In this document: positions 5,000 through 56,076 of the stretch, piece after piece
How the letters are laid out: each line of letters opens with the position of its first letter
Numbering within the stretch: the stretch's first letter is position 1
Source: an uncultured Gemmatimonadota bacterium
Lineage (GTDB): Bacteria > Gemmatimonadota > Gemmatimonadetes > Gemmatimonadales > Gemmatimonadaceae
NCBI GenBank assembly: GCA_903910555.1
Contig: CAIVZZ010000025.1
Span: 1-64,000 of the forward strand
Reading direction: 5' to 3'
Length of the DNA: 64,000 bases
Position numbers and translations under genes: made by a program
Notes under the pieces: model-generated
The model's input: only the letters and a program-made list of their open reading frames with translations
The model's database searches: none
What the model was told of the DNA's origin: nothing

Positions 5000-5040
5000 G
5001 CTGAGCTATGCGTTGTGAGCTGTGAACTGATGAACTGCTA

Positions 5041-5130
5041 GTGAGCTGTTAACTACTAACTGTTGGTCGGTGTTCTGTTGACTAATTCGTAAACAGACAA
5101 CCGACCAACAGTTAGTGGTTAACAGTTCAC
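5041..5130. repeat. Long imperfect hairpin between the phosphoesterase gene and guaA
   Basis: Two 40-base arms (5041-5080 and 5091-5130) match at about 35 of 40 positions as inverted copies, with a 10-base loop. The shared core is ACTAACTGTTGGTCGG. Shorter copies of the GTGAACTG word lie just beside it at 5017-5035. It begins about 12 bases after the phosphoesterase stop codon. No T-run follows, so a classical intrinsic terminator is uncertain. Confidence 0.85.
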
Positions 5131-5141
5131 ATCATTTCCCG

Positions 5142-11054: not shown

Positions 11055-11918
11055 TCAGCTCGAGGCCCACCCGGTTGCAGCGGGCTTGCCGCTCATGTGG
11101 CGAAGGAGCTGTCCGACGGTCTGCTTGAGCTGCCCCCGATGCACGACGCTGTCGACCATGCCGTGGTCGAGAAGAAACTCAGCGGTCTGAAATCCTTCGG
11201 GGAGATCCTGGCCGAGTGTCTGCTTGATGACGCGGGGGCCGGCGAATCCGATCACCGCACCAGGCTCAGCGAGAATCGCATCGCCGAGCATCGCGTAACT
11301 CGCGCTCACGCCGCCGGTGGTCGGGTTGGTGAGGATTGAGACGTACGGAATGCGCCGTTCGGCGAGCTGCGAAAGCACCGCCGAAGTTTTTGCCATCTGC
11401 ATGAGGGAGAGCACGCCTTCCTGCATGCGCGCGCCGCCTGATGCGGAGATAATGATGAGCGGGAATTTCTTTTCGAGGGAGCGTTGCCCGAGTCTGGCAA
11501 TTTTTTCGCCCACGACGGAACCCATAGAGCCGCCCATGAACGCGAAGTCCATGACGCCGAGATTTACGGGCATTTTTTCCATCGTGCCGGACGCCGTGAT
11601 GATCGCGTCGGAATCACCGGCGTTGGTCAACGCTTTCTTGAGGCGGCCGGGATAGTCGGGAAAGCCGAGCGGATCGACCGATTTGAGATCGGATTCGGTT
11701 TCCTCGATCGAGCCATCGTCGAGGAGGATGTTGATGTAGTCGATTGCCCGGATCCGGCGATGGTAATCGCAGACGGGGCAGACGTTGTGGGTCTTATTGA
11801 AATTTTCGCGGATGTCTGTGTGGCCACAGGCCTCGCACTTTTCCCAGACGTCGGCTGGGATTTCTAGCCGAGGGCCTTTGGGCTGTCTGGGTTTCTTCTC
11901 TTTTCGGAACCATGCCAT
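11055..11918 (-). CDS. accD: Acetyl-CoA carboxylase, carboxyltransferase beta subunit
   Basis: Part of the carboxyltransferase that transfers CO2 from carboxybiotin to acetyl-CoA, giving malonyl-CoA for fatty-acid synthesis. The 287-residue protein starts with a four-Cys zinc finger (Cys28, Cys31, Cys47, Cys50). The crotonase-fold carboxyltransferase domain includes SGGARMQEG, LTNPTTGGV and GFAGPRVI. The alpha subunit gene is not in the window. Its upstream region is occupied by the GTGGGAG-rich repeat of the S23 cassette. Confidence 0.96.
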   Translation of the reverse strand: MAWFRKEKKPRQPKGPRLEIPADVWEKCEACGHTDIRENFNKTHNVCPVCDYHRRIRAIDYINILLDDGSIEETESDLKSVDPLGFPDYPGRLKKALTNAGDSDAIITASGTMEKMPVNLGVMDFAFMGGSMGSVVGEKIARLGQRSLEKKFPLIIISASGGARMQEGVLSLMQMAKTSAVLSQLAERRIPYVSILTNPTTGGVSASYAMLGDAILAEPGAVIGFAGPRVIKQTLGQDLPEGFQTAEFLLDHGMVDSVVHRGQLKQTVGQLLRHMSGKPAATGWASS

Positions 11919-11929
11919 GCGGGAAATCT

Positions 11930-12155
11930 AGCGGTGTGGGAGTGGGAGTGGCGAGTCTAGTGGGAGGGGTGAGTTGAGAATGAGAGGTGAGTCGAGAATG
12001 AGAGGTGAGTAAGAGAGGGAGGGATGAGGTTGAGTACGTTCAGTGGGAGTCTGAGGGATGAGAGTGAGGTTGAGTGGGAGTTGAGTGGGAGTTGAGTGGG
12101 AGTTGAGTGGGAGTAAAGTGGGAGTTGAGTGGGAGTAAAGTGGGAGTGGGAGATG
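11930..12155. repeat. Left inverted-repeat arm and minisatellite of the S23 cassette
   Basis: Purine-rich low-complexity DNA between accD and the S23-type gene. Bases about 11955-12092 match the reverse complement of about 12735-12838 at high identity, apart from one extra 18-base copy of GAATGAGAGGTGAGTCGA on this side. The shared core includes GTGAGTTGAGAATGAGAGG and GAGAGGGAGGGATGAG. The inner part (12069-12152) is a tandem 11-base repeat, GTTGAGTGGGA or GTAAAGTGGGA, about seven copies. Confidence 0.88.
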
Positions 12156-12200
12156 GATCGGTACTGACGGCAGGAAATAGGTGATGGTTTGAACGGGCAA

Positions 12201-12656
12201 ATGCGCCACACTATGCGCATGCCAATCATTCATGATGAAGAGTTTCGGGGCTGGGAGGCTTGTGTGCCCGTCAGCCTCAGTGGCGACCCGGTGTGGAAGT
12301 TTCACGCCTACCGCGTCGCGCTGTTTCTGCTGGATCGCGCTGGACGTGATGCGCACGATCTCCGCAATCGCCGCGCCTTTCCTTACCAAACGGACCAGCT
12401 GCTTCGGTCGGTTGCGTCGATCAGCGCGAACGTCGCCGAAGGCCTTGGCCGATCTTCTTCGGCGGAGCGATCTCGCTTCTTCGGCGTCGCTCTCGGCTCG
12501 CTGCGAGAAAGCCTCACATGGTATCGGGCGGTAGCGGACGAACTGTCACCCGAGATCTCAGAGCTTCGCGTCGAACAATTCACGGAACTCCGGAAAATCC
12601 TAATCGGCGCCCAAAAATGGCTAGCGTCAAAACCTCAACGCACACAACTCATGTAG
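12201..12656 (+). CDS. Four-helix-bundle protein of the S23/IVP family
   Basis: A 151-residue protein on the strand opposite to all neighbours within 6 kb on either side. The core (about residues 30-120) has the family pattern: VWKFHAYR in helix 1, FPYQTDQLLRS, the signature SISANVAEGLGR, then ERSRFFGVALGSLRES. Relatives are encoded inside intervening sequences of some bacterial 23S rRNAs, and the Avd protein of diversity-generating retroelements shares the fold. The biochemical role of free-standing copies is not established. I used the ATG at 12201; a TTG at 12189 or ATGs at 12213/12219 are possible. The gene sits in the loop of a ~105-bp inverted repeat, between rodA and accD. Confidence 0.88.
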   Translation: MRHTMRMPIIHDEEFRGWEACVPVSLSGDPVWKFHAYRVALFLLDRAGRDAHDLRNRRAFPYQTDQLLRSVASISANVAEGLGRSSSAERSRFFGVALGSLRESLTWYRAVADELSPEISELRVEQFTELRKILIGAQKWLASKPQRTQLM

Positions 12657-12659
12657 CCT

Positions 12660-12838
12660 CGCACTCCCACTACCCCCACTCCCACTACCCCCACTCCCTC
12701 TCCCACTACTCCCACTACTCCCCCTCCCACTACTCCCACTCACCCTCACTCTCGCCCCTCAAACTCCCACTGAGCGTTCTCAAACTCATCCCTCCCTCTC
12801 AAACTCACCTCTCATTCTCAACTCACCTCTCCCACTCA
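12660..12838. repeat. Right inverted-repeat arm and minisatellite of the S23 cassette
   Basis: Pyrimidine-rich on the plus strand, the mirror of the left arm. Inner part 12660-12735: reiterated ACTCCCACTACCCCC / ACTCCCACTACTCCC words. Outer part about 12735-12838: near-identical inverted copy of the left core, lacking the extra 18-base unit. The outer end coincides with the stop codon of rodA (12838-12836), whose TGA is the first part of the repeat. Confidence 0.88.
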
Positions 12839-14086
12839 TATAACGAGCGTATCCGCCTTCCCTCTCCCTTCCCCCGAAATCCGAATCTCAATTCCAACCG
12901 CAATCCAACACGCCAGCATAAACGACCCACCATACGAAAAGAACGGCAGCGGAATCCCCGTAATCGGCATCAAGTTCAGCGTCATCCCCACATTGATCAG
13001 CACATGAACAAACCAAGTACTCACCAACCCAAACGCCACCAAACTCGAGAACGAATCCGTCGCCCGCCCTGCCACCCGGACACACCTCAAGAACAAAACC
13101 AGAAACAACACCAGCGCCACCGTTACGCCGATAAACCCGAGCTCCTCACCTACCACCGGAAAAATGAAATCCGTGTGCTGCGCCGGCAGAAACGCGAGCC
13201 GCTTTTGCGTGCCCATCGTGAAGCCTTTCCCGAGCCAACCACCGGATCCAATTGCGACCTGCGACTGAATCACGTGATAGCCCGATCGCAGCGGATCTGA
13301 TCCCGGATCCAGAAATACCAGCAACCTTCGCTGCTGGTACGGGTTGAGTTTTTCCCACACCAGCGGCGCTACCACTCCCATCGCCACGTTCGCGACCACG
13401 ACGAACACTCCCTCGGCGATATACGGGCGATACCAGAGCACCAATCCAATCAGGAGCAGGAACCAGGCGCCCCAGATCGTGGTGTTCACCGCAAGCACCA
13501 GACTGATCCCCGGACTCGCCACGAGCATCAGCAGCTGCCACGAGCAGCCGCTCCAGAACAGCATCGCGAAGAAAATCCCGATGAACACGAGACCGGTGCC
13601 GAGGTCGGGCTGCAGCATGATGAAGAGCCACGGAATCCCGACGACCAGCGCGGGCTGCCACAGGTCGACCAGGGACTTGGGTGCGTCGCGCCGGGCAGCA
13701 AGAACCTTTGCGAGCATCAGCACGACGACAATTTTCGCGATCTCTGACGGCTGGCCGAGCCGGAAGCCGCCGATCGCAAGCCAACTCTTCGTGCTCGCGC
13801 CCGTGCCGAATCCTTTGCCGATGAACACGAGCAGGAGCAGGACAAAGCAGGTCGCGGCATACAGCGGCGGGGTCAGCCAGTCGAGCATTCTCACCGATGC
13901 ACGACTCGCGAGATACGCGGCGACGAGTCCCATCCCAAACCAGATCAGCTGGCGGTGCCAAAGCGACGTCACGCGCGTGAGCACATCGGTCTGGCCGGCA
14001 GAGTACACCATCGCGATGCCGAAAATCGACAGCAACAGTGCGAGGACAAGCAGCGTGAAGTCGGGGACGAGCCGCTGCTTCATCAA
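12836..14086 (-). CDS. rodA: Rod-shape peptidoglycan glycosyltransferase RodA
   Basis: SEDS-family polymerase that builds side-wall glycan strands from lipid II together with PBP2. The 416 residues contain about ten membrane segments and SEDS blocks: the loop with QPSEIAK, LQPDLGTG, the extracellular YQQRRLLVFLDP stretch, AQHTDFIF and the C-terminal GIPLPFFSYGGS. The gene overlaps mrdA by 4 bases. Its stop codon is part of the right arm of the S23 inverted repeat. Confidence 0.96.
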   Translation of the reverse strand: MMKQRLVPDFTLLVLALLLSIFGIAMVYSAGQTDVLTRVTSLWHRQLIWFGMGLVAAYLASRASVRMLDWLTPPLYAATCFVLLLLVFIGKGFGTGASTKSWLAIGGFRLGQPSEIAKIVVVLMLAKVLAARRDAPKSLVDLWQPALVVGIPWLFIMLQPDLGTGLVFIGIFFAMLFWSGCSWQLLMLVASPGISLVLAVNTTIWGAWFLLLIGLVLWYRPYIAEGVFVVVANVAMGVVAPLVWEKLNPYQQRRLLVFLDPGSDPLRSGYHVIQSQVAIGSGGWLGKGFTMGTQKRLAFLPAQHTDFIFPVVGEELGFIGVTVALVLFLVLFLRCVRVAGRATDSFSSLVAFGLVSTWFVHVLINVGMTLNLMPITGIPLPFFSYGGSFMLACWIAVGIEIRISGEGRGKADTLVI

Positions 14087-18488: not shown

Positions 18489-18650
18489 GGTGAGGGGTGA
18501 GGAGGATGATCGGTGAGGAGTGAGGGGGAAAATCAGTGAGGTGTTATGGGGGAAAGCGGCGAGGACTCGTTGCGCCTCACTGATCGTGCCCCTCACCCGT
18601 TACTGATCCTCCCCCTCACCCGTTACCGATCTTCCCCCTCACTCCTCACT
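18489..18650. repeat. GTGAGGGGGAAGATCGGT-type repeat forming an inverted pair
   Basis: Left arm 18489-18540 is purine-rich (GTGAGGAGTGAGGGGGAA and variants). Right arm about 18576-18650 holds the complementary words several times, CCGATCTTCCCCCTCACTCC among them. It fills the 307-base gap between ald and mreB together with the mreB leader. The word ACCGATCTTCCCCCTCAC recurs at 59513-59530. Confidence 0.82.
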
Positions 18651-38550: not shown

Positions 38551-38595
38551 GGGTGGAAGCTATATGGGTTTGCGCGGCGGCGGGAGAACAGCCTT

Positions 38596-38711
38596 CCCAC
38601 GGATTTCACGGATTTCGCGGATTTAAAACCTTTTGGGGGAACTGCAACTGCTTGGCTGTTGCTGTTCCCCCAAATGTTGTAATCGCCGTTTAAATCCGCG
38701 TGATCCGTGGG
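38596..38711. repeat. Large hairpin of ATCCGTGGG-type repeat words
   Basis: Left arm 38596-38650 begins CCCACGGATTTCACGGATTT and continues through TTTTGGGGGAACTGCAAC. The right arm 38656-38711 is its inverted copy, ending AATCCGCGTGATCCGTGGG. Several internal bulges. The arms start 8 bases after the hydrolase stop. Words of the ACGGATTTCACGGATTT kind are known as scattered repeats in many bacterial intergenic regions. Confidence 0.85.
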
Positions 38712-38719
38712 AAAATCAG

Positions 38720-40738
38720 TTACGGCGCCGTCCCTAAATCAAATCCAACGTCATCGAGCAGAATCGTCCCAGCCGGCCCGCGATCGAATCTGAATCGGAT
38801 CGCGCGAACAGACGCCGGATCGAACCCAGGCAGCGCTTTGGCGAACGCCGCAAACGGAATCGTGTAGTGCGAAAGAATGTCATCGTGATCTTTCGCCGGC
38901 GGATTCAGGCGTTTCTCGAAATAGTCGTACTTCCAGATGCGCGATGTGAGCGGCGGACGGATCGGCGCGATATCAGACAGCGGCAGCGATGCAACCCGCC
39001 CGTCGGCCAGCACCAACTGGATCGTGAGATCGAGCGGAAGTGAATCGGCCTGAGCCTGAGCCTTCTTTGCCGAGTCGCTGAGTGCGGGCGGCTTGGGCGG
39101 GGTCGGCGCCTTCTTCTTGGCCGTTGTGTCCTCGTGCTCCGGCGGCGTCGCCGTATCGGCGGCCGCGAGCGGCCTGGGCTTCGCGCCACCGTAGTTCGCG
39201 AGATCGAACACGAGCGCCGAACCCGCCGAGAGATTCCACGATTTCGCGAGCGTGTCCGGCAGTGAGATCGTATAGCTCGCGCGCGCCGTATCTGTTGGCG
39301 TGCGTCCGGCGGTCCAGCCGAGCATCGCGACATTGTTGTCGAACGACGCCATCCCGCGGCTGCGCATTTTCACGGCGACTTCCTTCCACGTCGCGAGGCG
39401 CGCGCCGGAGATCTTCACGCCGTGCGCAGATCCGCTCGTGACGTCGATATCCTCTTCGTAATCGGCGAGGATGCGCTCGGACGGCGCTTCGTAGCGCGAG
39501 AGATAGACCGTCTTCGGCAGCCACGTTCCCACCGCGCGATGATCCTTGAACATCGGCAAATATTCTTTTTTATCGCGGATCGTGAGATCGAGGAATCCGG
39601 TAATGAAAACCTTCGCGATCTGCCGCTGCTCTTCGCCTTTCAACAGGAGATCCTTCGCCAGCAGCCAGCCCGAATCACCGACGTCGTTGTTGCCCCACAC
39701 CGTGTTGAACTGCCCGTGATTCGCACGATAGATGTAGAGCGCGGCTTTCACGAACGGAGAACCCTCCGTGAACTTCACGCGCTCGTACGCGCGCATCCCC
39801 ATCATCGTCTGCACATCGCCGTCGTGCGCGCCGTGCAGCACGAAATAATTCACATTTGAAATCGGGTTCAGCCGGTCCGTCGGCATGTACTGGCCATCCA
39901 CCGGCGCGATCGCAATCAGCGTCCGGATATTGAACCCAAAGTTCATCGTGACGCGCGCATCGTCGGGATAGCGCGACAGCCGGTTGAACGACGCCGCCAT
40001 CGTGATCGCTTCACCGCCCCGCGAATGGCCCATGAGCGCGATGCGAGACATGTCGACTTTGCCAAAGAACGGATTGCCGCTCTCGGTATTCCACTGCTTC
40101 CACGCCGTGAGATGCTCCAGCAGCAACCACCCGCGCAGATCGTTCTCATTGCGAATGTTGCCATTGATAAAGTTCTCATCGACCGACGCGAGGATATAAC
40201 CGCGGCTCGCGAGGTGCTCACCGAGATAGGCATAGCCCGGGTCGGAGAACTTCTTCATGTCGTGATTGCCGTGCACGATCAGCACGAGTGGGAACGGCCC
40301 CGGTCCCTCGGGATACCAGACGCGCGCATTGATCGGGAGGCGCTTCAGATCGAAGCCCCAGTACTTCCAGCGATCGGCGAGCAGCTTTTTATCGCCGCCG
40401 CGCAGAAACGCGGTGCCGTTCACCGGGCGCGTTTTGATCGTGACGGAATCGCGGTACTCGGCGCGGTTTTTATCGTTGCCGCTGCCGTAGTAGAGGAACT
40501 TTACGTTGTAAGGGCCGCGCTCGGCGGTGCTGGGGCCGGCGATGGAGCTGTGAGTTAGCTGCGTATCTGAGTCATCGTGCACCAGCAATGATGGTGGGCG
40601 GCACGAAGCCACGAGAGCGAAGAGAACTACGGGGACGAGCGAAGCATGAGGGGCGAACTGGCGAAGAGCGATGAACGAGGAGCGAAGAGAAAGTCTCTTT
40701 GCCCCGCGCGCATCGCTCTTCGCCAAGTCGCCCCTCAT
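38720..40738 (-). CDS. Large alpha/beta-hydrolase-fold lipoprotein or secreted protein
   Basis: A 672-residue protein. Residues 31-46 look like a lipoprotein signal, hydrophobic SLVPVVLFALVAS followed by Cys46. A central alpha/beta hydrolase domain (about 130-400) has LVLIVHGNHD as the oxyanion region and the nucleophile elbow GHSRGG with Ser239; a likely catalytic His is in RANHGQF. The C-terminal third (about 440-672) has a beta-rich character with an inserted low-complexity Thr/Lys/Pro stretch (around 565-585). It resembles PAF-acetylhydrolase or dienelactone-hydrolase-like enzymes; the substrate is unknown. The first about 35 codons lie inside a repeat hairpin, so the start is uncertain. 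Confidence 0.8.
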   Translation of the reverse strand: MRGDLAKSDARGAKRLSLRSSFIALRQFAPHASLVPVVLFALVASCRPPSLLVHDDSDTQLTHSSIAGPSTAERGPYNVKFLYYGSGNDKNRAEYRDSVTIKTRPVNGTAFLRGGDKKLLADRWKYWGFDLKRLPINARVWYPEGPGPFPLVLIVHGNHDMKKFSDPGYAYLGEHLASRGYILASVDENFINGNIRNENDLRGWLLLEHLTAWKQWNTESGNPFFGKVDMSRIALMGHSRGGEAITMAASFNRLSRYPDDARVTMNFGFNIRTLIAIAPVDGQYMPTDRLNPISNVNYFVLHGAHDGDVQTMMGMRAYERVKFTEGSPFVKAALYIYRANHGQFNTVWGNNDVGDSGWLLAKDLLLKGEEQRQIAKVFITGFLDLTIRDKKEYLPMFKDHRAVGTWLPKTVYLSRYEAPSERILADYEEDIDVTSGSAHGVKISGARLATWKEVAVKMRSRGMASFDNNVAMLGWTAGRTPTDTARASYTISLPDTLAKSWNLSAGSALVFDLANYGGAKPRPLAAADTATPPEHEDTTAKKKAPTPPKPPALSDSAKKAQAQADSLPLDLTIQLVLADGRVASLPLSDIAPIRPPLTSRIWKYDYFEKRLNPPAKDHDDILSHYTIPFAAFAKALPGFDPASVRAIRFRFDRGPAGTILLDDVGFDLGTAP

Positions 40739-40749
40739 GCTTCGCCCGT
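40635..40749. repeat. GCGAAGCATGAGGGGCGA-type palindromic repeat, copy 1
   Basis: Arms 40635-40673 and 40711-40749 are inverted copies matching at 36 of 39 positions, with a 37-base centre that itself holds a small hairpin. It begins 13 bases after the rpsA stop and covers the N-terminal codons of the hydrolase gene. The 26-base word starting GCGAAGCATGAGGGGCGACT is identical in the repeat at 54.2 kb. Confidence 0.9.
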
Positions 40750-40761
40750 ACCTAGTGGTTA

Positions 40762-42597
40762 TCAGCCTTCGGTGGATTCTGCCTCGTCCAAGGCCGCAGC
40801 GATCACCTCAGGCGGAACATCAGCCGCAGTCGTCTCACCATCTTCCGTGAACACCTTCGACGGTGTCTCCGGACGCGGCGGCTGCTCCTCAGGAATGCCC
40901 GTCACCGCGAGCACGATACGGCGATGGATAGGATCAACCTCGAGCACGCGCACGTCGAGATTCATCGTCTCCCACGCCACATCGGCCGGGCTCTGGATCG
41001 GCTTGCCGCTCACGTTGAGCTGCGAGATCGGAACGAAGCCTTCGATATCATTGCCGAAATCCACCACGACGCCCTTGTCCATCAGGCGAACAACTTTCCC
41101 CCGCAACTCAGTTCCGACCGGATAATTTTCGCCGATCTTGAGCCACGGATCTTCCTCGGCCTGCTTCAGTCCGAGTGAAATGCGCTTGTTGTCGCTGTCG
41201 ATATTCAGGATCACCACATCGACGTCGTCACCCTTCTTGACGACTTCCGACGGGTGCTGCACACGCTTGGTCCAGCTCATGTCGGAGATGTGAATCAGGC
41301 CGTCGATCCCCGGCTCGATTTCGACAAATGCGCCGAACGAGGTCAGGTTGCGAACCTTGCCGTTGATGCGCGTGCCGACCGGGTACTTGAGCGGCAGCAC
41401 CATCCACGGATCCTGCTCGGTCTGCTTCATGCCGAGCGAGATCTTCTCTTCCGTCGGATCAACCTTCAGCACCACCGCCTCGATCGCCTCGCCGATGCTG
41501 ACAAGCTTCGACGGGTGACGGACGTTGCGCGTCCAGCTCATCTCGCTGATGTGCACGAGCCCTTCGATGCCCGGCTCGAGCTCGATGAATGCGCCGTAGT
41601 TGGTGATCGAGACGACCTTACCCGAGACGCGCGTGCCGACCGGGTACTTCGCCGCGACGTCCTTCCACGGATAGCTCTGGAGTTGCTTGAGGCCGAGCGA
41701 AATGCGCTCGCGCTCCCAATCGATGTCGAGAACCTTCACTTCCAGCTCGGCACCGATCGCGACCATCTCGCTCGGGTGCTGAATGCGGCCCCACGACATG
41801 TCGGTGATATGGAGCAGGCCGTCGACACCGCCGAGATCGATGAATGCACCGAAGTCGGTGATGTTCTTGACGACGCCCTTACGAACCTGATCCTTCTCGA
41901 GCTCCTTCATCAACTTCTCACGCTTGCCGGCGCGCTCGGTCTCGAGGATCACGCGGCGCGACACAACGATGTTGCGGCGACGCTTGTTGAGCTTGATGAT
42001 TTTGAATTCGTACTTCTGGCCGAGCAGTTCGTCGATGTTCGGAACGCGACGGAGCGCGATCTGCGAACCCGGCAGGAATGCGTCGACGCCCATGAGGTCG
42101 ACGACCACTCCGCCCTTGATCTTCTTGACGAGCGTGCCTTCGACCGGCTGGTCGGACTCGTACGCGACGCGGATGCGTTCCCACACGCGCATGAAGTCGG
42201 CTTTCTTCTTCGAAAGAACGACCGAGCCTTCCTGGTCTTCGAGGTGCTCGAGGAGCACTTCGACTTCGTCACCCCGCTTCAGGTCCGGAAGATCTTTGAA
42301 CTCTTCGAGCGGGATCGTGCCTTCGGACTTGAAGCCGATGTCGAGCACGACGAGGTTGTCGCGGATCTCGAGCACCTTCGACTTCACAATCTCGCCTTCT
42401 TCGATCGAGGCGAGAGTGCCGTTGTACATATCCATCATTTGCTCGTACTCGTCGGACGTGTACTCGTCCTCCTCGTAGAGCTCGGGGCGTCTATTGGAAA
42501 GCGGGCGCAGCTGCGCCTTCTGCAGGTCGCGCTTCTCGCGCTGCGAGAGCGGCGAAATGCCGTTGAGATCGGGGACTTCGAGTGTGTCGGGGGTCAT
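40762..42597 (-). CDS. rpsA: 30S ribosomal protein S1
   Basis: A 611-residue mRNA-binding protein with six S1 domains starting at about residues 67, 152, 240, 324, 411 and 498. The best preserved are the third to fifth, each with a DFGAF/NYGAF/SFGAF and HISDMSW-like pattern. Acidic stretches flank the core (YEEDEYTSDEYEQ near the start, an acidic Ala/Glu tail at the end). I chose the ATG at 42597, preceded by GGAG; a longer frame to 42672 has no similarity. It follows cmk on the same strand (cmk-rpsA order is common) but a hairpin separates them. Confidence 0.96.
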   Translation of the reverse strand: MTPDTLEVPDLNGISPLSQREKRDLQKAQLRPLSNRRPELYEEDEYTSDEYEQMMDMYNGTLASIEEGEIVKSKVLEIRDNLVVLDIGFKSEGTIPLEEFKDLPDLKRGDEVEVLLEHLEDQEGSVVLSKKKADFMRVWERIRVAYESDQPVEGTLVKKIKGGVVVDLMGVDAFLPGSQIALRRVPNIDELLGQKYEFKIIKLNKRRRNIVVSRRVILETERAGKREKLMKELEKDQVRKGVVKNITDFGAFIDLGGVDGLLHITDMSWGRIQHPSEMVAIGAELEVKVLDIDWERERISLGLKQLQSYPWKDVAAKYPVGTRVSGKVVSITNYGAFIELEPGIEGLVHISEMSWTRNVRHPSKLVSIGEAIEAVVLKVDPTEEKISLGMKQTEQDPWMVLPLKYPVGTRINGKVRNLTSFGAFVEIEPGIDGLIHISDMSWTKRVQHPSEVVKKGDDVDVVILNIDSDNKRISLGLKQAEEDPWLKIGENYPVGTELRGKVVRLMDKGVVVDFGNDIEGFVPISQLNVSGKPIQSPADVAWETMNLDVRVLEVDPIHRRIVLAVTGIPEEQPPRPETPSKVFTEDGETTAADVPPEVIAAALDEAESTEG

Positions 42598-42728
42598 TAA
42601 ATGCTGCTCCTGAATCGCGAGTGGGATCGGCTCGACGCGACGGCGAGGATTCGGGTGAAGAAACGAAGGCACCGGCTGAATTGCCGGAGCCCCCCAAATT
42701 AGCCCCTAAAATGCACTTAGTCAATCTT

Positions 42729-42840
42729 CAGTCTAGGATCTTCCAGTCTAGCGTCTGACAACCCGCAGTACGCCGTTCACAGCTCTGAACCGCAAACAGC
42801 GGGTTTTCAGACGTTAGACAAAAGACCTAGACGTCAGACT
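42729..42840. repeat. Large hairpin overlapping the cmk stop codon
   Basis: Left arm 42729-42766 (GTCTAGCGTCTGACAACCCGC at its inner end) pairs with right arm 42799-42840, with about a 32-base loop. The stop codon and last two codons of cmk (42841-42827) fall in the right arm. The word GTCTGACGTC also occurs in the 62.3-kb spacer. Confidence 0.82.
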
Positions 42841-54138: not shown

Positions 54139-54241
54139 AGGGACGAGCGAAGCATGAGGGGCAATTGGGGATGGAGCGAAGAGCGAGGGCCCGTGCCGCC
54201 TCGCCCCTCGCCAAGTCGCCCCTCATGCTTCGCTCGTCCCT
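54139..54241. repeat. GCGAAGCATGAGGGGCGA-type palindromic repeat, copy 2
   Basis: Twenty-four identical bases in inverted orientation at 54139-54162 and 54218-54241 (AGGGACGAGCGAAGCATGAG plus GGGC). Weaker pairing continues inward. The right arm shares a 26-base identical stretch with copy 1 at 40.7 kb. It lies between tRNA-Gly and the glycosidase-like gene stop. Confidence 0.9.
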
Positions 54242-54264
54242 GTAGCTCCCATCGCCCCTCGCTG

Positions 54265-56076
54265 TTACGGCCGAAGTCCGTGAGCGTGGACCGTGTACCA
54301 CGCCACATACGCCACCAGCCCCGATAGCGCCGCATCCCCTCCATTCCCGGTCGCCCTGCCGTCCGCATCCACGAACTCGGCGGCCAATCCATGATCCAAT
54401 GGCGCCCGCCGCAGCCACTCGAGAACCGCCGACGCATCGGGCCCAAAGAGCCGCGCGAGCTGCGCAGTTAGATAATGCGGCTCGCCGGAGGCCTTCTTAG
54501 CCGTGCGACGGTAGACCGAGTCAATCCGCTCCACGGTTTCATAGAGCGGCAGCCAGAGCGCGGACGCGACGGGGTCGTCTTCTCGTGAGACACCGCCGGC
54601 GAGATCGGTCGCCGCAACGAAGACACTCTTGCCTGCTTCATCGGTCGTGAAGTGGCGGCGAATCGCGGCACGAACCGCCTCGGGATCGGGGAGCTCCTTC
54701 GCCTCTTCTTCGTCGATCGTCCGTTTCAGACAATCGAGCGCATACGCTACCACCGCGTTCCCGTGCAGCGTGAACGGATACGCCACCGGCGTGCCCGACA
54801 GCGTGACCTCGGTGTGATACAGCGGATGCGTTTTATCACGCCGCGCGTTGAGATCGTCGGACGACAGGTACAGCGTGTCCGCGAGAATCGCTTCTTCAAC
54901 GATTTGATCGTCGCCCGTATCACGGATGTACCGGTCAGTTGCGATCGCATACGCCGACGCGCCCTCGAGCGTGAAGCCCGGCTCGAATAGCGTGCCGTCG
55001 AAGTAGTGCACGCCGCGCCCCGGCGCGTATCCATGAATTTCGCACATGCGCAGGATGAGCTCGCGCGCGAGCGGCGGATCGGCGAGCTGCACGGCGGGAA
55101 TCGTCCACGCCAGCGCGTCCCAATCGCGAATCGTCACGCCGCGTGCGCACCAGGGCGCGCGACTGCGCACGAGATAGTAGTGCGCGTCATCGAGCGCGCG
55201 GGCGACACCATAGAAATACGCAAAGAGCAGATGACGGTTGATCAGCCCGTCGAGCGACTCCATTCCTGTGGTCTGCTCGAGCGAACGAATCGCATCGCGA
55301 GTGGCGGTGAGCAGCGCGCGCCATCCGCGGCGGCGCAGCACGCCAACGGTCGCAACTGCGCCATCACGCTCGGGCCCCGCGCCGATATAAAACGCGGTTT
55401 CAATGCGCCCCTTGGCGGGGACCGTAAAGCGGCACCGCACCGCGTACGACGGCGCACGATGGTTCGCCGCGTCGCCGTCCAATACGGTGACCTCACTCTC
55501 GCCGTCCGCCGCGATCGCGAGTGCGACATGACCCGGCGGCTCGGCGCCGTCCAAAACCACCACGTCGCCAACCTTCGACACGCGATGCACATCAGACGCA
55601 GGGCGCGGTGTGCGCACACGCAGCTGCCGGTGCCCAAGCGTCCCCTCCAGCGCGAGCACGATCTCCTTCGGCTCCGTACCGCGATTCTCGACCGTGAGCG
55701 CGTACACCGCGCCGGCGATATCAGCATCGCGACCAAAGGGCGCGAACACAGTGCCCCGCACCACCAGCGCGCCCGGGTTCGCCGTGAAGGTCGGCAACCA
55801 GTGGAGCGCGCGCTCCCAAACCATCCCTTCAACCGCGAGGGCGACCGGGCGACCGTCGATTTCAATCGTCGGCCGCGCGAGCGCCGCGTGGGTCCCGCCC
55901 AGAAAATCTTCGTGCCCCGCGAACTCCACCGCCGAGCGCGCTCCGCGGTGCAAAACGCCGAGCGCGTGGATCGCGGCGTCGGCGGGGTGCACGCAGGGGA
56001 TCGAAAGCCAGTGGTTCCCGGTGATCTGCCAGGGAACCGCGGGGAGGGCGTCGTGTGTCAGGGAGTGGGATTCCAC
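54265..56076 (-). CDS. Six-hairpin glycosidase-like protein
   Basis: A 603-residue cytoplasmic protein without signal peptide. The N-terminal ~250 residues are beta-rich and the C-terminal part (270-600) looks like an alpha-helical (alpha/alpha)6 barrel, as in amylo-alpha-1,6-glucosidase, GH15 or GH63 enzymes. Suggestive pieces are CARGVTIRDWDALAWTIPA and TLFEPGFTLEGASAYAI, where the DWD could hold an acid residue, but I could not identify a complete catalytic pair. Treat the class as tentative. Its ATG is 19 bases from the oppositely oriented outer-membrane gene. Confidence 0.55.
   Translation of the reverse strand: MESHSLTHDALPAVPWQITGNHWLSIPCVHPADAAIHALGVLHRGARSAVEFAGHEDFLGGTHAALARPTIEIDGRPVALAVEGMVWERALHWLPTFTANPGALVVRGTVFAPFGRDADIAGAVYALTVENRGTEPKEIVLALEGTLGHRQLRVRTPRPASDVHRVSKVGDVVVLDGAEPPGHVALAIAADGESEVTVLDGDAANHRAPSYAVRCRFTVPAKGRIETAFYIGAGPERDGAVATVGVLRRRGWRALLTATRDAIRSLEQTTGMESLDGLINRHLLFAYFYGVARALDDAHYYLVRSRAPWCARGVTIRDWDALAWTIPAVQLADPPLARELILRMCEIHGYAPGRGVHYFDGTLFEPGFTLEGASAYAIATDRYIRDTGDDQIVEEAILADTLYLSSDDLNARRDKTHPLYHTEVTLSGTPVAYPFTLHGNAVVAYALDCLKRTIDEEEAKELPDPEAVRAAIRRHFTTDEAGKSVFVAATDLAGGVSREDDPVASALWLPLYETVERIDSVYRRTAKKASGEPHYLTAQLARLFGPDASAVLEWLRRAPLDHGLAAEFVDADGRATGNGGDAALSGLVAYVAWYTVHAHGLRP

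Follow-up and report, generated by a model that had tools for sequence, protein, structure and literature searches.

The rodA-accD locus

In the window, by which we mean the whole stretch of 64,000 nucleotides of Gemmatimonadota DNA that was analysed, rodA and accD are separated by a unit of about 900 bp. It consists of a left arm, an S23/IVP gene and a right arm:

11055..11918, minus strand: accD, the downstream neighbour in the split operon
11936..12150, plus strand: left hairpin arm, built of degenerate repeats rich in purines (GTGGGAG / GTTGAGTGGGA), including an 18-nt duplication
12219..12656, plus strand: S23/IVP gene (four-helix bundle) in the loop, 145 aa, with PF05635 and TIGR02436 matches
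12658..12838, plus strand: right hairpin arm, the complement of the left one, extending to the rodA stop codon
12836..14086, minus strand: rodA, the upstream neighbour, whose stop codon adjoins the right arm

The unit is a hairpin element, in which one S23 gene stands between long, mutually complementary arms of degenerate tandem repeats; it was inserted immediately after the stop codon of rodA. Without gaps, 11975-12081 matches 12732-12838 over 107 nt (88%), and 11959-11992 matches 12803-12836 (97%). The gapped match of 11982-12150 to 12675-12831 (156 aligned, 92% identity) scores 198, against at most 39 in shuffles and at most 90 in 4-mer block shuffles. The 18-nt duplication of the left arm is the sequence GAGAATGAGAGGTGAGT, present twice, and tandem repeats of 11 nt and 15 nt lie in the inner parts of the arms. 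The right arm meets the stop codon of rodA (12836-12838), and about 18 nt separate the accD start from the left arm. RNA of the rodA-accD strand is predicted to fold into a single very long stem (MFE -492.6 kcal/mol, z -20.8). Rfam gave no match within 11-14 kb of the window.

An earlier note on this DNA had described much of this layout, and its account of a gene antiparallel to both neighbours (S23 on the plus strand, accD and rodA on the minus strand), of the 18-base duplication and of arms lying beside the rodA stop and near the accD start agrees with ours. Its inverted arms of about 105 bases are real, and longer than it claimed. It had placed the gene at 12201-12656; the end stands, and the start is moved to 12219, the one conserved among orthologues.

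From this start the protein begins MPIIHDE and has 145 residues. It scores 49.9 bits against PF05635 (cut-off 33.8) and 59.5 bits against TIGR02436 (cut-off 24). Its AF2 model (pLDDT 92) has the four-helix bundle fold of the S23 structures 2gsc (Z 17.5) and 2rld (Z 16.5), and resembles more weakly (Z about 13) the Avd protein of diversity-generating retroelements. PF05635 is the only domain found in the gene enclosed by the arms, with no transposase and no Y1/HUH domain, and we know of no catalytic domain in S23. Neither the Y1 (REP-type) transposase family PF01797 nor the reverse transcriptase family PF00078, the latter expected of a diversity-generating retroelement, retron or group II intron, had a match in this genome or any of 12 congeners. 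The idea of such an enzyme, whether REP-type transposase or reverse transcriptase, acting in trans was considered and rejected, none having been found in the genus.

S23 genes and their arms

We examined the flanks of other S23 genes, and found that their placement within a hairpin is the rule, not an accident. Each of the 11 S23 genes of this genome is enclosed by inverted arms whose sequence is peculiar to that locus (44-156 aligned nt, scores 58-198). Together with four congeners the count is 36 of 39 at a score of at least 40, so that the earlier note's proposal to look for inverted repeats around the S23 genes of relatives is answered in the affirmative. Among S23 loci in relatives, 19 of 28 reach this score, as do two of 123 positions along the window, one of these being the window cassette itself. 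The search was widened to 80 loci from many phyla (query XCC0516 plus relatives), of which 78 were usable; 44 of these reach an inverted-repeat score of 36, compared with two of 400 control positions from the same loci. For 44 of 49 arms a period of 7 or 14 fits best, and periodicity is strong in 47 of the 49 (controls, 20 of 490). Nearly all the S23 reading frames are intact.

Some individual loci deserve mention. In an Acidobacteriota MAG (G026, locus L303) the S23 arms are perfect AGTTCTC repeats, about 155 nt per side, apparently a very recent expansion. A Saprospiraceae MAG (G029, contigs C71 and C40) has eight S23 genes, several of them clustered a few hundred to 3500 nt apart; at L306 of the same MAG, CTCTCTA-type repeats stand in tandem beside another S23 gene.

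Arms accompany their S23 protein to new sites and the two are inherited jointly. Among 36 cassettes there were ten whose most similar arms belonged to a unit at a different chromosomal site, and in all ten the protein of that unit ranked 1-5 of 35. Arms remain recognisable at dS >1.2 (for example L004/C37 and L006/C24), and the S23 genes are under purifying selection (dN/dS 0.06-0.25). Pairing of a unit's own arms was not stronger than pairing between family copies, so this measure does not demonstrate arm co-evolution inside single elements.

Gene-less hairpins

Hairpins of the same family as the window unit but without a gene are dispersed over this genome, and the window unit is the family member that carries the gene. 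Its arms recur elsewhere as seven inverted pairs with short loops and no gene, and as three single arms. The arm of another cassette, L005, has many copies, each a palindrome. Within 269 kb of this genome we counted 17 gene-less hairpins, of which 12 fall in arm families of its 11 cassettes, and the sole gene seen between arms of these hairpin families is S23. Four such hairpins lie in the window, none assigned a strand:

5032..5138: gene-less hairpin, L004 S23-cassette family; arms of another cassette, empty in most other congeners
40600..40783: gene-less hairpin, L018 S23-cassette family; arm family match
42725..42840: gene-less palindrome, L005 S23-cassette family; arm family match
54139..54270: gene-less hairpin, L018 S23-cassette family; arm family match, adjoining a tRNA-like sequence

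About two thirds of 22 gene-less hairpins lie no more than 10 nt from a stop codon, often occupying the gap between convergent genes, as half of the examined copies do. Arms of this genome were seen dispersed only in G002, G010 and G012, congeners with 7 to 10 S23 genes. Long hairpins numbered 26 in 400 kb from five S23-rich genomes (one N-run artefact left out) and none in 400 kb from five S23-poor relatives. The S23-rich stretches were partly picked from contigs with known arm or S23 hits, so their hairpin density is biased upwards and the contrast somewhat inflated; genome-wide counts rest on searches and sampled stretches.

Several hairpins were noted individually. The tRNA-like sequence (glycine-type by eye) at about 53.9-54.3 kb of the window, adjoining the L018-family hairpin, has more GACGGCGG-type repeats close by. 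Hairpins with no cassette match in this genome lie at 38594-38713 of the window, at 2337-2431 and 8517-8630 of L011, and at 8477-8586 of L203; three carry motifs like TTTTGCCAC.GGTC..CGCGG and one carries CACGGATTT repeats, and they possibly represent orphan families. A hairpin of GTGAGGGGTGAGGAG repeats upstream of a mreB-like gene (window 18490-18649) likewise has no matching cassette in this genome. At L207 (18128-18277) the hairpin loop contains a smaller terminator-like hairpin (GGGCCGCGGCAC...GTGCGCGGCCC), and this site in sister genomes has the same outer stem with different inner stems. At two contig ends of this genome (L064 1-140 on C26, L065 1-200 on C6), ends of an IS3-like element abut window-family hairpins, as if the element used these as targets.

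Empty and refilled sites

The S23 unit between rodA and accD is present in this genome (G000) and in G002, G007, G010 and G012. In seven congeners the insert is absent, leaving spacers of roughly 16-60 nt, which settles the earlier note's question of whether relatives have rodA-accD empty. Of the gene-less sites, numbers 1 and 8 are occupied in G010 and G012 but empty in most other congeners. Filled and empty sites are too diverged to define the ends of the unit, and target-site duplications could not be resolved. With flanking arms in relatives and empty rodA-accD sites, the note's idea of a cassette is upheld.

The S23 genes at rodA-accD are orthologous (70-79% identity between G000, G002 and G010/G012). 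The arms around them are wholly different between these lineages, yet still complementary. Relative to the operon the gene is antisense in G000 and G007; in G002, G010 and G012 it is inverted and reads in the sense direction. In G010/G012 one arm family occupies rodA-accD and two gene-less sites, and a different one occupies these three sites in G000; concerted change and repeated independent insertion at the same spots cannot be separated here. Sites 5 and 6 also hold different hairpin families in different genomes. A CACGGATTT-type hairpin occupies site 5 in G012, and an element similar in appearance to the window 18490-18649 hairpin is at site 6 in G002 (L264).

Xanthomonas

We found S23 in 23 of 25 Xanthomonas species. 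It lies either at the accB-accC junction, where its arms are GGGAATC, or at the carA-carB junction, where they are GGGGACC; the neighbour genes were named from their own sequence. The GGGAATC heptamer has been reported as highly enriched in Xanthomonas, often as inverted pairs behind genes, with S23 unmentioned (PMC4692102). These known repeats are the arms of the accB-accC S23 gene. The pattern GGGAATCGGGAATC (GGGAATC pairs) occurs 12 to 280 times per S23-bearing species, and the reversed control pattern not at all; the two species without detected S23 have none (G054) and 25 (G037). The pattern GGGACCGGGGACCG (GGGACCG repeats) reaches its highest counts, 25 and 37, in the two species that carry a second S23 gene with GGGACC arms; G037 has 19 and all others at most five. 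G037, with both GGGACCG and GGGAATC repeats and no detected S23, contradicts the pattern unless a gap in its assembly hides the gene.

Interpretation

The observations show how the unit is built, that its site is empty in some congeners, that gene-less copies are specific to families, that arm and protein are inherited together, and that the protein is under selection. We infer from them, with somewhat better than even confidence, a REPIN-like family of mobile hairpin elements in which S23 stands in place of a transposase and drives the movement. The pattern is like that of REPINs, no Y1 transposase or reverse transcriptase is found, and only S23 lies between the arms; S23 is therefore inferred to recognise and spread the hairpin. 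An oligomeric S23 helical bundle would recognise the arm of its own family as a single-stranded hairpin, in RNA or in lagging-strand DNA, and would help this hairpin to be copied, or to insert after stop codons, acting in cis on the cassette and in trans on the copies that lack a gene. The chemistry would fall to host enzymes, invoked because neither a reverse transcriptase nor an HUH transposase is present. Recombination between arms may flip the S23 gene, and arm-to-arm correction may keep the arms complementary as they drift. The S23-bearing intervening sequences of 23S rRNA would be copies of the same element, landed in rRNA helices. The earlier note had offered a mobile unit, a protein that binds its own hairpin, and an RNA element excised from the transcript; the mobile unit is the best supported of the three, and binding of S23 to its own hairpin is plausible, with no binding data.

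That the same gene-in-hairpin unit is found in many phyla, with many gene-less hairpin copies, suggests a kind of mobile element that has not been recognised. In its general form the claim is that a class of mobile elements owes its mobility to S23 proteins, each element being a gene in a hairpin of 7-nt repeats with large gene-less populations and no known transposase or reverse transcriptase, with rRNA intervening sequences and at least some of the familiar bacterial heptamer repeats among the products. We put this forward tentatively, as a claim that falls a little short of an even prospect. No movement has been observed, and we have no data on S23 binding or moving nucleic acid. Having one S23 gene per family, often at a site that different species share, also fits a fixed host gene. 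For five of the 17 gene-less hairpins the genome has no S23 cassette with matching arms, which counts against mobility through S23, as does the apparent absence of the Coxiella S23 protein in vivo (PMC4990558).

The strongest rival, unlikely in our estimation, makes S23 a host regulator: each paralogue would bind a separate group of hairpins at the 3′ ends of transcripts, the hairpin at its own gene serving autoregulation, with RNA protection, blocking of RNase III or an effect on termination as proposed modes. Purifying selection, single copies of S23 and one hairpin family per S23 gene all suit a regulator, as do hairpins placed just behind stop codons, a position shared by the Xanthomonas repeats (PMC4692102). 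Left unexplained are S23 genes between arms of their own in many phyla, the S23 units present in rRNA genes (PMC4990558, PMC11270868), and unrelated families at the same site in sister genomes. S23 might instead be a passenger, kept through hairpin carriage while the hairpins spread by an unidentified transposase, or by replication slippage and template switching at quasi-palindromes. The lack of a catalytic domain in S23 is compatible with this, as are the slippage-like expansion of repeat units inside arms (AGTTCTC in L303, GTTGAGTGGGA in the window) and the IS3-like end adjoining two hairpins. We nonetheless find it doubtful: the same protein family would have to recur as passenger across many phyla, arms and protein co-vary, S23 is under purifying selection, and no hairpins were found in the 400 kb from S23-poor relatives.

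A further reading has RNase III excise the hairpin from the rodA-accD transcript, as happens with rRNA intervening sequences, so as to split or control the operon. In its favour are the very long stem predicted for the transcript strand (z -20.8) and the cutting of the Coxiella intervening sequence by RNase III (PMC4990558). Against this, the gene is antisense to the operon in G000/G007 and sense in G010/G012/G002, and half of the examined gene-less copies lie between convergent genes; a common processing role in operons is on both grounds unlikely, and we give the reading very little weight. Low-complexity arms do inflate similarity, but that chance, or simple low-complexity DNA beside an unrelated gene, accounts for the arms is scarcely credible given the score of 198, where 4-mer block shuffles reach no more than 90, the 11 of 11 genes in the genome and the strong enrichment relative to matched controls. 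The shuffles (at most 39, at most 90) and the controls (2/400) rule out chance similarity of low-complexity flanks.

The preferred reading, movement through S23, touches three open questions, namely the role of S23, the entry of intervening sequences into rRNA genes and the origin of bacterial heptamer repeats, and the pattern joins them in one element. If S23 is indeed a mobility factor, DNA would be spreading with none of the known recombinases. Direct tests are possible because each S23 protein has a defined family of putative target hairpins.

Comparison with known systems

Intervening sequences bearing S23/IVP genes occur in the rRNA of Coxiella and Leptospira, and also in 16S and 23S genes of CPR bacteria; it is chiefly from such unusual rRNA inserts that this gene for a small protein is known. 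The parallel with these that the earlier note drew holds in form: in both, an S23 gene lies in a hairpin loop, enclosed in the window by a terminal inverted repeat able to form a stem. The window unit differs in standing between the protein genes rodA and accD, with no rRNA helix involved, and units of its type have much longer arms and gene-less satellites across the genome. In the Coxiella 23S intervening sequence heptamer repeats lie by the start codon of the S23 gene in the loop, and its distribution is patchy; a mobile origin was proposed long ago (PMC4990558). A role in mobility for the rRNA intervening-sequence ORF was proposed by Ralph and McClelland in 1993, as cited in PMC4990558.

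Unlike an insertion sequence with MITEs, the window unit has no transposase between its terminal inverted repeats, only PF05635. The Avd protein of diversity-generating retroelements is predicted from the model to share the S23 fold (Z about 13), and the two families are remotely related (PMC10053308), but no reverse transcriptase was found in the window genus. The GGGAATC / GGGGAYT heptamers of Xanthomonas and Nostoc (PMC4692102) are, like our hairpins, intergenic, near the 3′ end of the upstream gene and often in inverted pairs, and the Xanthomonas repeat unit is the arm sequence of a Xanthomonas S23 gene. They were not linked there to S23 genes, and the link made here comes from Xanthomonas only. 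A literature search found no connection of non-rRNA S23 genes to hairpins or heptamers; most subscription papers lay outside it.

In the REPIN/RAYT system each palindrome family has a single-copy gene flanked by its own palindromes, with many gene-less intergenic copies and co-evolution of the two (PMC3116915). S23 units differ in encoding a four-helix bundle without a Y1/HUH domain, and in arms of about 25-190 nt of degenerate repeats as against the short tagged palindromes of REPINs. The likenesses are that dispersed intergenic palindromes match those beside an S23 gene, and that each family has one single-copy gene, the 11 S23 genes having distinct arms.
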